48,261 bases of DNA from contig CATPBK010000014.1 in NCBI GenBank assembly GCA_955652705.1, positions 1-48,261 of the forward strand. The letters run 5' to 3'. The notes below the pieces were generated by a model. The model searched no databases. It saw nothing but the letters and a program-made list of their open reading frames with translations, and was not told where the DNA came from. A program made the position numbers and the translations under genes. This document shows, piece after piece, positions 22,573 through 38,335 of the stretch. This stretch comes from Candidatus Dormiibacterota bacterium (GTDB lineage Bacteria; Chloroflexota; Dormibacteria; Dormibacterales; Dormibacteraceae). Within the stretch, counting starts at the first letter, position 1, and each line of letters begins with the position of its first letter.

Positions 22573-22710
22573 TCAGCTGGAGCTGAGCTTCTCGCGTCCT
22601 TTACGCCGGCGATTACGGATGACGCGGGCACCGCCCCGCGTACTCATCCGCTGCAGGAACCCGTGCACGCGCCGGCGGTAGCGCTTCTTCGGTTGGAATG
22701 TGCGCTTGAT
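22573..22710 (-). CDS. rpmH: Ribosomal protein L34, likely ATC start
   Basis: 45 residues reading [20 protein letters not shown], then [20 protein letters not shown] and LSSS. This aligns residue for residue with L34 (MKRTFQP...HGF..RM.T.GG..V...RR.KGR). The codon in the Met position is ATC. The frame has a TAA 15 bases upstream and no ATG, GTG or TTG before the conserved sequence. AGGAAG sits six bases before the ATC, an ideal spacing. Either the gene starts at ATC, or the read carries a one-base error. Too short for most gene callers at this start. Confidence 0.88.
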
Positions 22711-28000: not shown

Positions 28001-30784
28001 ATGAGGCTATCGGCGGAGCAGAGGGCGGCGGCAGCCGGCCTTTTCGGTCCGGTTCGAGTGGTGGCCGGCGCCGGCACCGGCAAGACGGCGGTCGTGGCCG
28101 AGCGCTTCCTCCGCCAGGTGCGGGCCGGGACTGAGCCGACCTCGATCCTGGTCATGACGTTCACGGAGCGGGCCGCCGGCGAGATGCGCTCACGCATCGA
28201 GTCCAGGCTTGGAAGCTGGTCGGGCCAGCTCTGGGTGGGCACCTTCCACGCTATGGCCCAGGCGTTTCTACGCGAAGAGGGTTGGCGCATCGGCGTGCCC
28301 TTCAACTTTCGAGTCCTGATGGGCGCCGACCGCTGGATCTTCCTGCGCGAGCTGCTCTGGCGGACCGGCGACCCGGCGCTGGTGGGTGTCGAGCGGCCAG
28401 ATGACCTCGTAGCGCCGCTGCTCAGGTTGATGGAGCGGTTCAAGCAAGAGCTGGTCCCGTTGGGCCGGGTCGAGGAATGGGCGAAAGGGGCGTCCGATCG
28501 TGAGCTGGGGGAGCAGCTGGCGGCGGCGGTGAGGCTCTTTCGAACTTATCGAAAGCAGACTCGCGCGGAGAAGCTGCTTGACTTCGATGACCTCCTGGTG
28601 CAGCTCGTGGAGCTGCTCAACCACCGTCCCGAGGTCCGCGAGCGCTTTGTAAAACGTTTTACATCGATCCTGGTCGACGAATACCAGGACTCCAACTTCG
28701 CGCAGGAGCGAATGGTCGAGCTGCTCTCGGGCAGCGGCAACGTCTGCGTCGTCGGCGACGACGATCAGAGCATTTACAGGTTCAGGGGTGCGTCGCTGGC
28801 CAGCCTGGAACGCTTCATGCGCTCCTTTCCCGGCGCCACCACCCGCACCCTCGGGCGCAACCGGCGCAGCACGGCCAACGTCGTCGCCGCGGCCTCGGCG
28901 CTGATCGCCAATAACCCGCGTCGGCTGCAGAAGTCGCTGAGCGCCGGCCGGCCCCCGGGCCCCCGGATCGCCGTCTGGCACTGCGCGGACAGCTTGGCTG
29001 AGGCCTTCGCCATCGCCGCCGAAGTTCAGCGGTTGGGCGCTCGCGGGATGCTCTTGCGGCGGATCGCCCTGCTGGTGCGTACCAACGCGCTGGCCCGACC
29101 TCTGGTGGCGGCCCTAAGGGCGGCGCGAATACCCCACCAGCTGTGGGGCGTGCGCGGCTTCTACCGGCGACCCGAAGTGCTCGACGCCATCGCCTACCTG
29201 CGCTTGCTCGATGACCCTGGAGATGAGGTCGCCCTGGCTCGGCTGGCGGCCAGGCCAGGTCTTGGCCTCGACGCCGAGGAGGTCCTGGAGCGCTTGCGCC
29301 AGGCCCGCGGGAACGGGAAGCAGCCGCTGGCAGCTGTGGAGGCCTCGACCGGCGGCGCATCCTGGGTCGCGGTCGTGCGGAGGCTCGTCGTGGCGAGCGC
29401 CCGGCTCGGGGTGGACGAGCTCTTCTTCGAGCTCATGAACCAGACGCGCTACCTGGACCTCGCGAGCTTCGAGTCGGAAGCCGACCGCCGCCAGGCGGCG
29501 GCCAACCTGGGCCGCTTTGCGGAGCTCCTGGCGGGCTACTGCGAGGGCGCGCGCGACCACTCCCTGCGGGCCTTCATGGCATACCTCGACCTGGTTCTCC
29601 TCTCGGAGACCGACGAAGAGGTCGCCGGCGCTGAGGAGGTTGAGGAGGCGGTCCAGGTCATGACGATCCACCAGGCGAAGGGCCTCGAGTTCGACGCCGT
29701 CTTCGTTCCTGCGCTGGTGGAGGGGCGGCTGCCCCACTCGCGCCGGCCCGACCGTTTCACTCTTCCCGCCGAGCTGGTCCCCGAGGCCCCTGGCCGCGAA
29801 GACCAGGTCGCCGAAGAACGGCGCCTCGCCTATGTGGCCATGACGCGCGCACGCGACCGGCTCTACCTGTCCTGGGCCGACCGCTACGACGGCGGCAAGA
29901 CCTGGCGGCGGTCACGCTTTCTGGAGGAGTTGGAGGCGGCCGGCGCGGAGCGGTTCCGACACCGGCGGGTTGAAGCCGTCCCACCGGCGCCAGTGCCCGA
30001 ATTGGCGGCCGGTGAATCCCCCGCCGCCGCAATTGCGCTCGCCGCCGCCATTCCGGGAGAGCCGCTTGCGCTCTCGTTCAGCGGCATCAGCACCTACCGC
30101 GAATGCCCCCGCCAGTATCGCTTCAGGTACGTCTACCGGCTGCCCCGCGCGGCCGACCCGGAGGCCGAGTTCGGCACCATCCTGCACCACGCCCTGCGTC
30201 GAGCCGGGGAGGTCAGACAAGCAGGCGGCGAGGTGGACGCGACGGCCTTGAGGAGAGTCCACGAGGCGGCCTGGGAGACGCTCCCCTACTCCGATGAGCG
30301 ACGCCGACCAGCACTTAAGTCGCTTGGGCTGAGCCAGCTGGAGCGCTACCGGGCCGCCGGTGGTTTCGCGGCGACCCCGGCGCTGCTCGAGCAGGCCTTT
30401 TCGGCTCGGGTGGACGGCTGGCAGCTGCACGGGATCATCGACCGGGTCGACCCGCCCGAAGTAAGCCGAGGCTCCTGGCGGCTGCTCGACTACAAGACTG
30501 GTTCGCCCGTACCCGCCAGCCGGCTGCGCCGCGATCTTCAACTCGCCCTCTACGCGCTGGGCGCTCGACGCGCACTCGGGCTGGACCCGTTAGAGCTGGA
30601 GATCGTGTACCTGAAAGACGCCACCCGGGTAGTCGTTCCTGCCACCCAGGGCTTGCTCGAGGAGGCGGAGGGCATCGCGTCGGAGGTGGCGGACGGGATC
30701 CGACAGGGTCGGTTCGAAGCTCGTCCAGAGCGGCGCCGCTGCGCCCTCTGCCCCTACCGGCTGGCCTGCTCGGATGCCTTGTAG
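28001..30784 (+). CDS. UvrD-type helicase fused to Fe-S PD-(D/E)XK nuclease
   Basis: 927 residues from ATG 28001. The N-terminal superfamily 1A helicase has Walker A AGAGTGKT (22-29), the DEYQD Walker B near 226, DDDQSIYRFRGAS and VMTIHQAKGLEFDAVF. The C-terminal ~230 residues are a RecB/AddB-like nuclease: FGTILHHAL, GIIDRVD and LLDYKTG. Four cysteines fit a 4Fe-4S cluster: one in YRECPRQYRF and three in CALCPYRLAC (C-x2-C-x5-C). This composition suits double-strand-break end processing, as in AddAB or AdnAB. A parS-like site lies inside at 28648. The 3' end overlaps the facing glycosyltransferase gene. Confidence 0.9.
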   Translation: MRLSAEQRAAAAGLFGPVRVVAGAGTGKTAVVAERFLRQVRAGTEPTSILVMTFTERAAGEMRSRIESRLGSWSGQLWVGTFHAMAQAFLREEGWRIGVPFNFRVLMGADRWIFLRELLWRTGDPALVGVERPDDLVAPLLRLMERFKQELVPLGRVEEWAKGASDRELGEQLAAAVRLFRTYRKQTRAEKLLDFDDLLVQLVELLNHRPEVRERFVKRFTSILVDEYQDSNFAQERMVELLSGSGNVCVVGDDDQSIYRFRGASLASLERFMRSFPGATTRTLGRNRRSTANVVAAASALIANNPRRLQKSLSAGRPPGPRIAVWHCADSLAEAFAIAAEVQRLGARGMLLRRIALLVRTNALARPLVAALRAARIPHQLWGVRGFYRRPEVLDAIAYLRLLDDPGDEVALARLAARPGLGLDAEEVLERLRQARGNGKQPLAAVEASTGGASWVAVVRRLVVASARLGVDELFFELMNQTRYLDLASFESEADRRQAAANLGRFAELLAGYCEGARDHSLRAFMAYLDLVLLSETDEEVAGAEEVEEAVQVMTIHQAKGLEFDAVFVPALVEGRLPHSRRPDRFTLPAELVPEAPGREDQVAEERRLAYVAMTRARDRLYLSWADRYDGGKTWRRSRFLEELEAAGAERFRHRRVEAVPPAPVPELAAGESPAAAIALAAAIPGEPLALSFSGISTYRECPRQYRFRYVYRLPRAADPEAEFGTILHHALRRAGEVRQAGGEVDATALRRVHEAAWETLPYSDERRRPALKSLGLSQLERYRAAGGFAATPALLEQAFSARVDGWQLHGIIDRVDPPEVSRGSWRLLDYKTGSPVPASRLRRDLQLALYALGARRALGLDPLELEIVYLKDATRVVVPATQGLLEEAEGIASEVADGIRQGRFEARPERRRCALCPYRLACSDAL
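28648..28663. other. parS-like site 5 (inside the helicase gene)
   Basis: TGTAAAACGTTTTACA, a perfect 16-bp palindrome. In the reading frame it encodes VKRFT just before the DEYQD motif, using the codons GTA, AAA, TTT and ACA, which are rare in this gene. Confidence 0.8.
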
Positions 30785-31944
30785 GCGGCGGCCACCCGCA
30801 GGCATTCGCGCGCGATGTCGAGGCTCGCATAAGGGTGCGAGATCTTGGCGGCGCGTTCCGCCATGGCGCGCCAGCTGGGGCTGCCGGGCTCGGCCAGCTC
30901 CCGAACCGCGGCCAGCAACTGGTCCGGCTTCGGTTCGTAGCGGCCAATGCCGGACTGCTCCACAAAGGTCACGTTTTGCGTCTCCTGGCCGGGCAGGTAG
31001 CTGGTCAACAGCATCGGCATCCCGGTCGCCAGCGCCTCTCCGATCGCTCCCGGCCCTGCCTTGCCCACCACGATGTCGGCTGCGCGCATGAGGTCGGGCA
31101 TGTAGTCCACAAAGCCGAGGATCAACGCCCGGGACTGCCAGTTGATCCGGCTCAAGCGGCGGCGCAGCTTTTCGTTCCGGCCGCAGACGACGATCAGCTG
31201 CCAGTCGGCCTCGCGTCGAGCCAGGGCCCGTACCTGTCGGAGCAGCTTGCCCGAGCCCTCGCCCCCGCCCGCGACCAGGATCGTGAATCGGCTCTCATTG
31301 AGTCCGAAGCGGCGGCGCAGGGCTGCCTGCTCGCCCGGGGCGGGGGGCCGAAACCGGAGGTCGACCGGCAGTCCCAGCAGCCGCAGCCGGGACTCCGGCA
31401 CGCCAGCCGCCAGGCACTCGGCGCGCGCCATCTCGGTGGGGACCACAACCAGGTCGGAGCGGGGGAACATCCACCCGAGGTGGAAGTCGACCAGGTCCGT
31501 GATCACCGTGACCAACCCGCGGGGGCGCTGGCCTCGCCTGATCGTCTGCCAAGCGACGTGATTGAGCAGCGGATGCACCGAGACGACGAGGTCGGGGTCG
31601 AACCCGGCCAGTTCGCGGGTCAGGACCTTGCGCACGTAGCCGCCGAAGACGCCCCGCACCAGAGCGAAAGCGGGCCGGTTGTTGAAGCCGTGGTAGATAG
31701 CGCCCCACAACGGCGGCGAGCGCTGGATGAGAGGCGAGTAGAGGCTGGCCAGACGCCGGACGAGGCGCGAAGAGGATTGTTCGCCCATGAGCGGGTCGAG
31801 CTGCTCCACACGAGCGTCGGGGTCCAACTGAAGGATCGCCATCTCGAGCGCGTGGGCGGCCGCGCGGTGCCCTCCCCCCGTATTCGAGTAGAGGATCAGG
31901 ATTCGCGGCCCTGAGCCGCTCTGCGCGGGGGCCGGGTCGGCTAT
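30754..31944 (-). CDS. MGDG-synthase/UgtP-like glycosyltransferase, likely ATA start
   Basis: About 396 residues. The family (GT28, processive diacylglycerol glycosyltransferases and MurG relatives) makes membrane glycolipids. The N-terminal motif ILILYSNTGGGHRAAAHALE is encoded upstream of the first ATG (31842), so that ATG is not the start. The frame opens after a TAA near 31981 and has no ATG, GTG or TTG before the motif. An ATA at 31944 has GGGAGG five bases upstream. Other features are VTDLVDFHLGWMFPRSDL, VAGGGEGSGK and the acceptor-side VGKAGPGAIGEALATGMP. It converges on the helicase gene. Confidence 0.85.
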   Translation of the reverse strand: MADPAPAQSGSGPRILILYSNTGGGHRAAAHALEMAILQLDPDARVEQLDPLMGEQSSSRLVRRLASLYSPLIQRSPPLWGAIYHGFNNRPAFALVRGVFGGYVRKVLTRELAGFDPDLVVSVHPLLNHVAWQTIRRGQRPRGLVTVITDLVDFHLGWMFPRSDLVVVPTEMARAECLAAGVPESRLRLLGLPVDLRFRPPAPGEQAALRRRFGLNESRFTILVAGGGEGSGKLLRQVRALARREADWQLIVVCGRNEKLRRRLSRINWQSRALILGFVDYMPDLMRAADIVVGKAGPGAIGEALATGMPMLLTSYLPGQETQNVTFVEQSGIGRYEPKPDQLLAAVRELAEPGSPSWRAMAERAAKISHPYASLDIARECLRVAAAYKASEQASR

Positions 31945-32163
31945 GAGCGCCTCCCAGCAAGCACCGTGCGCCGAACCCTGCGCTTAAGAACTGTGGTTGG
32001 GAGCCGGCTTGGGCGGTTCAGGATCACGCGGGCCCTAAATCATACGGAGGGAGTCGGGGCCGCCCGCGCCTCGCGACGCCCGGCCGGCGGGGAATAGCGG
32101 GCGGAAGGGTACGGTATTCACAGAGGTGCCTGCCCACGGCCGCGATTGTCATTTGACGCCCTC

Positions 32164-36716: not shown

Positions 36717-37382
36717 ATGTCAGATTCGGGCGCCAGGGCGACACCGCCCGATCCGCCCGAAACAATCCGGCCCCACCGCCTGAGCCTGATCTTGGTTCGG
36801 CACGGTTGTTCCACCTGGAACACGGAGCAGCGCATCCAGGGCCAGCTCGATCCGCCGCTGTCCGAGCTGGGTCGGGAGCAGGCGCGGCGCTTGGCGGAGC
36901 GCTTGGCGGACGTCCACCTGGACGGGTTCTACACGAGTGATCTGCAGCGTGCGGCCGACACCGCTGGAGCGGTGGCGGAGCGGCTCGGACGCGCTCCGGA
37001 AAGAGTTCCCGCGTTGCGCGAAATCGCGCTCGGCGAGTGGGAAGGTTTGACCAGGGCGGAGATCACCGAGCGCTATCCAAAGCAGTGGCAGGCCTGGCTC
37101 AAGCAGCCCGACTGGGACATCGTGCCGGGCGGCGAGGGCACGCGGCGCTTTGAGGAGCGGGTCGGCCGGGGCCTGGACCAGTTGATGGAGCGGCACCCGA
37201 CGGGAAGGGTGCTGGTCGTCACGCACGGCGGGGTCATCCAGGTCGCCCTCCTGCGCGTGGTGGGACGATCATCGAACGGCCTCTTTCCTTTCACTATCGA
37301 GAACACCTCTCTCACGGTCATCGAGGGACGTCCGCCTCGGATGGTCGTCTCGAGGGTGAACGACACCTGCCATCTGAACTGA
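36717..37382 (+). CDS. Histidine phosphatase (phosphoglycerate mutase superfamily)
   Basis: 221 residues. The catalytic motif is LVRHGCSTWN, with phospho-His at H29 and the second His in VVTHGGVIQVALL. Length and motifs suit broad-specificity phosphatases (CobC/GpmB type) rather than glycolytic mutase. About 20 Pro-rich residues precede the domain. A near-parS sequence at 36807 is explained by this motif. The stop overlaps the CTG candidate start of the next gene. Confidence 0.88.
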   Translation: MSDSGARATPPDPPETIRPHRLSLILVRHGCSTWNTEQRIQGQLDPPLSELGREQARRLAERLADVHLDGFYTSDLQRAADTAGAVAERLGRAPERVPALREIALGEWEGLTRAEITERYPKQWQAWLKQPDWDIVPGGEGTRRFEERVGRGLDQLMERHPTGRVLVVTHGGVIQVALLRVVGRSSNGLFPFTIENTSLTVIEGRPPRMVVSRVNDTCHLN

Positions 37383-38335
37383 GTGAAGCCGCCTGGGACG
37401 CCGAGCTGTCCCGGCTGCAGAGCCCGGCGCCGCTATTGCAGAGCTGGGCCTGGGGCGAGGTGCAACGGCGCGCCGGCTGGCGGGTGCAAAGGGTCCGGGT
37501 CGGCGAGTCGGGGCTGGCGTCGGTGCAGCTCCGGGGTCGGCCGCCCCTGGAGCGTGGTTACGTGCCGCGGGGACCCGTGGCCGCCGAGCCGGCGGCCCTT
37601 AGGGCGCTCGTGAGCTGGGCTCGGGAGCGCCGCCTGGCCCGGTTGCGGGTCGAGCCGGAGGCCGGCGCCGAGCTCGCTACGGAGCTGCGCGAGCTCGGGT
37701 TTCGGCCGGGACCTTTCGTTCAGCCGCAGCACACCCTGATCGTGCCGCTGGCCGACCCCGACCAGATGCTCGCCTCTTTCAAGCGCGGTACTCGCTACAA
37801 CATCCGGCTGGCGGAGCGGGGCGGCATCACCGTGGTGGAGGGCCGCGACGCCGCCGAAATGGAGCGCCAGGCCGCCGCCAGCGCCTCCCGCCAGAGGATC
37901 AACCTGCCCAGCCGCGCCTACTTCGAAGTTCTCCTCGACCGCCTGCCTTCGGCGCGCACCTACATCGCGCAATTTGAGGGTGAGGCGGTCTCCGCGCTGC
38001 TCGTCGCTCACCACGATGGGCGGGCCTACGACCTCTACAGCGGGTCGAATGGCCGGAATGCCCGATTGAAGCCGGCTTATGCCACGAAATGGGCCGCCCT
38101 CACCGGCGCCCTCCGGGCGGGGTGTCGCGACTACGATCTGTGGGGAGTCTCGCCCGGACCCGACCGCTCCCACCCTTGGTATGGACTCTGGGAGTTCAAA
38201 TCCGGCTTCGGCGGGGAGCTGGTCGAGTACGTGGGCTGCTGGGACCTGGTCCTCGGCGAAGTTCGCCACGCCGTGGCCGAGGTTGGAGAGCGCGCTCGCC
38301 GGCGGGTGGGCAAGCTACTTCGCAGGGGTGATTGA
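37379..38335 (+). CDS. FemAB/FemX-type peptidyltransferase
   Basis: About 318 residues if it starts at CTG 37379, which overlaps the upstream TGA (CTGA); TTG 37436 gives 299. The N-terminal sequence before TTG 37436 (AAWDAELSRLQSPAPLLQSW) fits the family, favouring the upstream start. The double GNAT fold shows VPLADPDQMLASFKRGTRYN, VSALLVAHHDGRAYDLYSG and YATKWAALTGAL, ending YGLWEFKSGFGGELVEYVG. Relatives add amino acids to peptidoglycan stem peptides using aminoacyl-tRNA, which relates to the murE nearby. No ATG is available. Confidence 0.82.
   Translation: MSEAAWDAELSRLQSPAPLLQSWAWGEVQRRAGWRVQRVRVGESGLASVQLRGRPPLERGYVPRGPVAAEPAALRALVSWARERRLARLRVEPEAGAELATELRELGFRPGPFVQPQHTLIVPLADPDQMLASFKRGTRYNIRLAERGGITVVEGRDAAEMERQAAASASRQRINLPSRAYFEVLLDRLPSARTYIAQFEGEAVSALLVAHHDGRAYDLYSGSNGRNARLKPAYATKWAALTGALRAGCRDYDLWGVSPGPDRSHPWYGLWEFKSGFGGELVEYVGCWDLVLGEVRHAVAEVGERARRRVGKLLRRGD

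Follow-up and report, generated by a model that had tools for sequence, protein, structure and literature searches.

An apparent AUA start codon in an MGDG-synthase-type glycosyltransferase gene of a Dormibacteraceae bacterium

The glycosyltransferase locus

The window, meaning the whole stretch of 48,261 nucleotides that was analysed, is contig C14 of genome G000, the 2.79 Mb assembly (166 contigs) of a soil bacterium of the family Dormibacteraceae, called f1 here; f2–f4 are other families of the same class. A glycosyltransferase gene and the region around its beginning carry the following features:

30754–31944, minus strand: MGDG-synthase/UgtP-like glycosyltransferase (PF06925 and PF04101), 396 codons, counted from ATA 31944 and without the stop
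31840–31842, minus strand: first in-frame ATG, encoding residue 35 when the ATA is residue 1, inside helix α1; judged not to be the start
31843–31902, minus strand: strand β1 and TGGGHR loop, upstream of ATG 31842
31942–31944, minus strand: ATA, the proposed start codon, the sole near-ATG codon before Arg14, conserved in the sister genome G001
31950–31955, minus strand: GGGAGG, Shine-Dalgarno-like, at a spacing of 5, conserved in G001
31984–31986, minus strand: upstream in-frame stop, a TAA closing the glycosyltransferase frame (TGA in G001)
31941–32027, minus strand: possible leader ORF of 28 codons, GTG 32027 to TAG 31943–31941, the TAG overlapping the ATA as ATAG; function speculative
32004–32043, minus strand: conserved block, 40 of 40 bases identical in G000 and G001, beginning one base inside TATGAT

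The protein has a GT-B fold and an N-terminal MGDG_synth domain with the TGGGHR loop. PF06925 (MGDG_synth) scores above its cut-off and is covered in full (1–169 of 169) when the frame is translated from its stop, against only 39–169 if the protein begins at ATG 31842, and PF04101, the GT28 C-terminal domain, reaches 51.1 bits (cut-off 22). The best PDB match is Arabidopsis MGD1 (4wyi, E 1.1e-56), with an alignment that begins at residue 13. The AlphaFold model, numbered from the ATA (pLDDT 81.8, pTM 0.84), has its top Foldseek matches in 4x1t and 4wyi, with TM scores of 0.73–0.76 by model and 0.89 by target at 28% identity; in it, residues 14–18 form β1 and 24–40 form α1, and residues 1–9 have pLDDT below 50. 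The earlier note on this DNA had placed a conserved motif in front of the first ATG, and indeed ILILYSNTGGGHRAAAHALE is encoded at 31902–31843, directly before the ATG at 31842–31840. Within it, T22, G23, G24, G25, H26 and R27 are invariant and R14 is nearly invariant in an alignment of 32 f1 sequences. The available text of PMC7419546 describes H155 of MGD1 as the catalytic base, alongside T151 and R156, and since the spacing of these three residues fits TGGGHR, H26 would be the equivalent of H155.

Substitutions between G000 and G001 fall at the three codon positions of the gene in the proportion 14/12/94, so the gene is under purifying selection and is not a pseudogene. We regard its product as a functional enzyme of the GT28/MGDG-synthase type, presumably with a diacylglycerol acceptor. 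Fold and loop are shared with MGD1, but that enzyme is an MGDG synthase, whereas sugar donor, acceptor and product are not assigned here. The protein is related to the NCBIfam diglucosyl diacylglycerol synthase model NF010135 but, at 120.7 bits, misses its equivalog threshold of 500 bits, and judged by its sequence the exact product is not assignable.

The start region

The frame on the minus strand reads TAA | GCG CAG GGT TCG GCG CAC GGT GCT TGC TGG GAG GCG CTC ATA GCC GAC CCG, and, as the earlier note had said, it holds no ATG, GTG or TTG from TAA 31986–31984 down to ATG 31842–31840. Essential coding sequence thus has no AUG, GUG or UUG upstream of it, the situation expected of a natural AUA start. 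Between the stop and Arg14 lie 26 codons, of which only ATA 31944 differs from ATG by no more than one base. The GGGAGG that had been reported five bases before it is there, at 31955–31950, and its GGAGG can pair with CACCTCC at the 3′ end of the 16S rRNA of G001. In the stretches of G000 examined, 121 of 1798 ATA codons (6.7%) have a Shine-Dalgarno match of at least 5 bases at a distance of 4–10 bases; by chance, 27 codons would be expected to include 0.065 such matches for ATA, ATC, ATT and CTG together and 0.032 for ATA, ATC and ATT. The motif by itself is only mildly unlikely and is weak evidence. What lifts this ATA above chance is that a canonical start is absent and that a second species has conserved both the ATA and the GGGAGG.

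Farther upstream, TATGAT at 32044–32039 is a possible −10 element near the gene, and a promoter scan found no σ70-like promoter. The block identical at 40 of 40 bases (32043–32004) sits between the glycosyltransferase and a divergent plus-strand gene.

Comparison with the sister species

The glycosyltransferase of the sister species G001 is 96% identical in protein sequence, and the DNA of the start region differs by about 10.6%. G001 keeps the ATA at the same position, with CGGGAGGCGTTC in front; an identical codon in two assemblies so far apart is not a base-calling error. Base changes by codon position number 2/2/2 in the 39 bases upstream of the ATA, 0/2/4 in the 42 bases from the ATA to before ATC 31902, and 0/2/8 from the ATA to before ATG 31842, so that substitutions look non-coding upstream of the ATA and coding downstream. 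The likelihood break-point for the onset of coding constraint is the codon for Arg14, one codon before ATC 31902, and not the ATA, from which we take the tail between ATA and Arg14 to be poorly constrained. G001 also carries an in-frame TTG ten codons upstream of the ATA that G000 lacks. The leader ORF is open in G001 too, with the same ends, and its substitutions (5/3/4) are not coding-like.

This ATA occurs in two species only, G000 and G001, the latter being the sole congener available, and other codons are found outside the genus. In both genomes the neighbourhood of the gene differs from that in the rest of f1, and the partner gene, recognised by its ...YNMRWIARR... tail, is located on another contig.

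Relatives in the family and class

In 25 of 33 f1 loci the glycosyltransferase frame contains GTAA or GTAG; in 23 of the 33 the partner gene ends there, in the −1 frame, and in the remaining two GTAG loci it ends in another frame. The other loci have ATAG (G000 and G001), CTGA (G005 and G017), ATGA (G006 and G012) or none of these (G008 and G014); the ATAG, CTGA and ATGA of these six loci do not contain the partner's stop and may be due to chance. No in-frame ATG, GTG or TTG lies within 120 bases before the motif in 14 of the 33 loci, although several of these frames are open farther upstream and may have a more distant start. A candidate for the real start in relatives is the NTG inside the partner gene, at its CGN TGG codons; by our tally a little over half of about 25 relevant genomes have ATG, GTG or TTG at this place and the remainder CTG. 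The earlier note had proposed comparing the start codons of homologs: the sister species retains ATA, and canonical ATG codons appear only farther off, in G006 (75% identity, ATG behind GAGAGG near the corresponding place) and G012 (52%). Nine loci were read in f2–f4, and in the 8 of 8 parsed (L251 was left out of the start count) an in-frame ATG or GTG lies within about 30 codons before the motif.

Apparent unusual starts in other genes

The comparison involves further genes of the window and of related contigs:

22576–22710, minus strand: rpmH (ribosomal protein L34, PF00468), ATC start at 22710–22708; ATC or ATA in most of the class
37379–38335, plus strand: FemAB-like gene with CTG 37379 as probable start, its CTGA overlapping the end of the histidine-phosphatase gene upstream
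L166, 10760–11329, minus strand: histidine phosphatase (PF00300; relatives L252–L281), its start overlapping the upstream stop
L157, 2917–3837, minus strand: ABC ATPase (MIEVQDLVKRY... if CTG is read as Met), CTG in a CTGA overlap; G001 has GTG at +9
L297, 13236–14222, plus strand: EamA-like transporter without canonical start, CTG directly after the TAA of the upstream gene
L300, 6420–7181, minus strand: GDPD-like gene with no ATG, GTG or TTG in its frame from stop to motif; first 16 codons identical in G001

The claim that rpmH shows the same pattern as the glycosyltransferase stands as to the kind of start (AUH) but not as to the codon, which is ATC and not ATA. An ATH codon followed by the L34 N-terminus was found in 44 of 55 genomes of the class against 0 of 345 other Chloroflexota, by a pattern that can fail where rpmH has diverged or is absent from the genome; by family the counts are 23/23 in f1, 9/12 in f2, 12/12 in f4 and 0/8 in f3. 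Read base by base, 48 rpmH genes of the class start at ATC or ATA in 44 cases (ATA in G074, G085, G088 and G092) and at ATG in four (G043 and G051 of f3, G003 and G010 of f1); further ATG-started genes are those of G048 and G079 of f2. Some of the ATH-started genes also have a canonical codon farther upstream in frame. Apparent GTA, GTC or GTT starts of rpmH elsewhere in the phylum were rejected, the codon being the second one behind ATG, GTG or TTG in 10 of 10 loci. At L077 and L078 (G009 and G030) TATGCT or TACACT stands six bases upstream of the ATC, and the rpmH mRNA could there be leaderless, beginning at AUC. Genome G078 has a second rpmH-like match with an ATG start (C133, 11065–11084), possibly a contamination, and its other copy starts at ATC.

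Starts at AUU, AUC or AUA are the known pattern of infC, under autocontrol by IF3. The inferred infC start is ATC or ATA in 29 of 30 loci, all 29 of them in f1, the exception being G051 of f3. This last gene (L206) has AAGGAGG in front and neither ATG, GTG, TTG nor ATH at the usual place, with ACG as a candidate. The glycosyltransferase resembles infC in its AUH codon, but no IF3 feedback loop is implied for it.

In many f1 genomes two genes seem to begin next to a stop that lies upstream, with CTG, GTA, ATA or CTA as the start codon. The overlap at the histidine phosphatase gene is, in 30 f1 loci, CTGA 23 times, GTAG twice (G000, G001), ATAG twice (G006, G013), CTAG once (G014) and GTGA once (G008, in which the usual upstream gene terminates sooner); G012 has no overlap but a GTG. 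In G000 this frame opens just 12 bases before the GTA, which has GAGGTGA seven bases upstream. At the 23 loci where the upstream gene ends in Ala-TGA the alanine codon is always GCC (23/23, in related and not independent loci), against 45% of the Ala codons there. For the FemAB-like gene, G000 offers no canonical start codon within 45 bases, and G001 has a TTG at +27; judging from the sequences, it and the L157 ATPase look like real CTG starts. Across G000 and G001, 32 four-base overlaps between coding-scored ORFs, some of which may be antisense, have GTG 8, TTG 7, CTG 7, ATG 6, GTA 3 and ATA 1 at the overlap codon, which is itself canonical in 21 of them; apart from the phosphatase, the other CTG, GTA and ATA cases have a canonical codon within 45 bases.

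Genome-wide use of ATA starts was considered and rejected. The survey covered the pair G000 and G001, in which 219,369 bases were aligned and 143 coding ORFs were well supported; 23 of these ORFs lack ATG, GTG and TTG in the searched interval of G000. On inspection by eye, no plausible canonical start remains for four of them: the glycosyltransferase, the histidine phosphatase (GTA), the EamA-like gene (CTG) and the GDPD-like gene, the last two tentatively named from motifs that we recognised. Among the others, the majority look antisense or have their canonical start immediately beyond the interval, and at least four (L091 7746, L298 4361, L101 5011, L098 3715) were placed in neither group.

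The 30S neck and initiation factors

No odd initiator tRNA was seen in the loci of 30 of 41 tRNA matches, which contain three CAT tRNAs, one with the GGG-CCC stem and the 1-72 mismatch, that is, a standard CAU initiator. Alignment revealed no odd IF3. In 16S rRNA, G1338 and A1339, placed by what we take to be E. coli numbering, are both intact. What does differ in f1 is helix 28, the neck of the 30S subunit, in which two base pairs are swapped in a compensatory manner, U921-A1396 to A-U and A923-U1393 to G-C (presumed E. coli positions). The Rfam structure line assigns both swaps to pairs of helix 28, which an unpaired A separates on the 3′ strand. The 16S rRNA of G000 ends at model position 902, and helix 28 was therefore read in six other f1 genomes, all those with coverage (G001, from L305/L328, and G004, G005, G008, G012 and G017), each of which has AATAGGCGG and TTGCACTCACC. 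In f2–f4 the corresponding stretches are TTGTACACACC in 14 genomes and AATTGACGG in those 13 of the 14 that have coverage there. The first stretch was also sought by a pattern, which 16S altered elsewhere in the stretch would escape; it matched in 107 of 400 Chloroflexota, with AATAGGCGG in 6 of 6 f1 genomes and 0 of 101 others; two of these 101, G283 and G342, read AATTGGCGG. The 3′ strand was compared within the class.

According to the available part of a cryo-EM study (PMC5037330), helix 28 forms the neck and is compressed in the closed state of the 30S subunit; the study also cites mutations of the neck by which translation from a non-cognate start codon is increased. It is conceivable, and we put it forward only tentatively, that f1 has a relaxed selection of start codons, with the helix 28 swaps as cause or as a parallel development and the glycosyltransferase AUA as one outcome. 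Starts would then be picked by position rather than codon, and would fall at AUA, GUA, CUA or CUG above all where these overlap an upstream stop. Against this, an ATG, GTG or TTG can plausibly serve as the start of most surveyed genes, the overlap codon is canonical in 21 of the 32 four-base overlaps, and rpmH starts at ATH also in f2 and f4 genomes, where helix 28 is normal, so that the altered helix is not needed for those starts. Since both swapped pairs are compensated, the helix is kept and no effect on fidelity is implied.

The AUA as probable start codon

We consider it highly likely that this gene encodes a functional GT28/MGDG-synthase-type glycosyltransferase translated from AUA 31944 with fMet-tRNA; its expression is probably low or responsive to IF3. 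The invariant TGGGHR and the nearly invariant R14 place the start upstream of R14, and the start at ATA that the earlier note proposed is backed by conservation in G001, by the shift in substitutions and by the catalytic motif upstream of the ATG. AUH starts at rpmH and infC in the same class, the standard initiator tRNA and the ordinary IF3 speak for it as well. Against it weigh the shortness of the Shine-Dalgarno match, the poorly constrained tail with the break-point at Arg14, the ATG of G006 and the occurrence of this ATA in just two species, in both of which the gene has other neighbours than in the rest of f1. We take the AUA to be a real start, probably a weak one. The 16S tail would pair with the GGAGG upstream and set the initiator fMet-tRNA (CAU) on the AUA with a third-position mismatch. 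The product would begin fMet-Ala-Asp-Pro-Ala-Pro..., a disordered tail preceding strand β1, and ADPAPAQSGSGPR would be its N-terminus once the methionine is removed. IF3 would be expected to discriminate against an AUA start and little protein would be made, which is why the codon probably sets a low or IF3-responsive expression; we infer possible control by IF3 from the codon class (PMC4611024).

The AUA might instead be used through reinitiation after the leader ORF (GTG 32027 to TAG 31943), as a relic of the four-base stop–start overlap of the relatives. The partner's stop meets the glycosyltransferase frame as GTAA or GTAG, in the −1 frame, in those 23 of 33 f1 loci, the leader is open in both species with identical ends, and the f1 histidine phosphatase gene has the same geometry (CTGA, GTAG, ATAG, CTAG). 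However, both G000 and G001 have the partner gene on a different contig, the leader does not evolve like coding sequence, a fair Shine-Dalgarno motif precedes the ATA, and an ATA followed by G, as well as an open frame of 28 codons, would easily arise by chance in DNA of 67% GC. Reinitiation thus appears rather unlikely to us. Less credit still is due to a start at another non-canonical codon at β1, namely ATC 31902, CTG 31899 or ATC 31896. All three are conserved in G001 and the break-point lies one codon before the first of them, yet the adjoining Arg14 is nearly invariant in 32 sequences and differs synonymously (CGA/CGG) between G000 and G001, and Shine-Dalgarno-like matches there extend over only 3 bases; we hold such a start to be improbable.

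That ATG 31842 is used, the similarity upstream being irrelevant, is very improbable, even though it is the first canonical start in frame: its product would lack β1, the invariant TGGGHR loop and half of α1, the codons upstream of it change mainly at third positions, and a Shine-Dalgarno motif was looked for before it and not found. A sequencing or assembly error or a pseudogene could be suspected, as G001 is a metagenome assembly and G000 is split into 166 contigs, but an ATA common to two assemblies about 10.6% apart and purifying selection on the gene make this barely credible.

Initiation at AUA from 31944, the reading that we prefer, would be an additional case of a known kind, while the wider use of unusual starts in the lineage appears to be new; our search of the available literature found no report of it. 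In Staphylococcus aureus, according to the available part of PMC13009471, infC, ccpN and citZ start at AUA and cvfC1 at AUU, and in poor medium ccpN and citZ reporters with that codon yield about 10% of what they do with AUG. Those AUA genes resemble ours in having a Shine-Dalgarno sequence in front and, for starts of the infC and ccpN type, in conservation between species. They differ in that ribosome profiling documents them, as reporters also do for three, whereas the glycosyltransferase AUA is known from comparison, and in that their Shine-Dalgarno sequences are described as extended, whereas that of the glycolipid enzyme has 5–6 bases. In Borrelia burgdorferi, too, a true non-canonical start upstream of the annotated one restores the active site of pncA (BBE22); there, as the available text of PMC13398362 has it, the codon is AUU, the gene had been mis-annotated as a shorter ORF, and biochemistry and a crystal structure were provided. 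Termination-reinitiation at four-base overlaps is treated in PMC10666635, and most f1 relatives have such an overlap, but in the part available start codons are taken to end in G, with rare non-canonical ones allowed, whereas the f1 overlap codon is GTA, ATA, CTA or CTG. The accessible part of PMC2268962 describes E. coli work in which a mutant initiator tRNA let non-canonical codons serve for reinitiation; for cells that have lost RRF, it cites starts at codons of this kind behind a stop.

Gene finders limited to ATG, GTG and TTG would lose the catalytic loop of this glycosyltransferase, truncate or miss the ATC- and ATA-started rpmH genes of the genomes sampled, and clip other f1 genes. A lineage with several non-canonical starts and a co-varied 30S neck helix would also offer a natural test of start-codon control by helix 28 and IF3. 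The altered f1 16S stretches coincide with what we take to be common universal primer sites, so that f1 may be under-counted in amplicon surveys.
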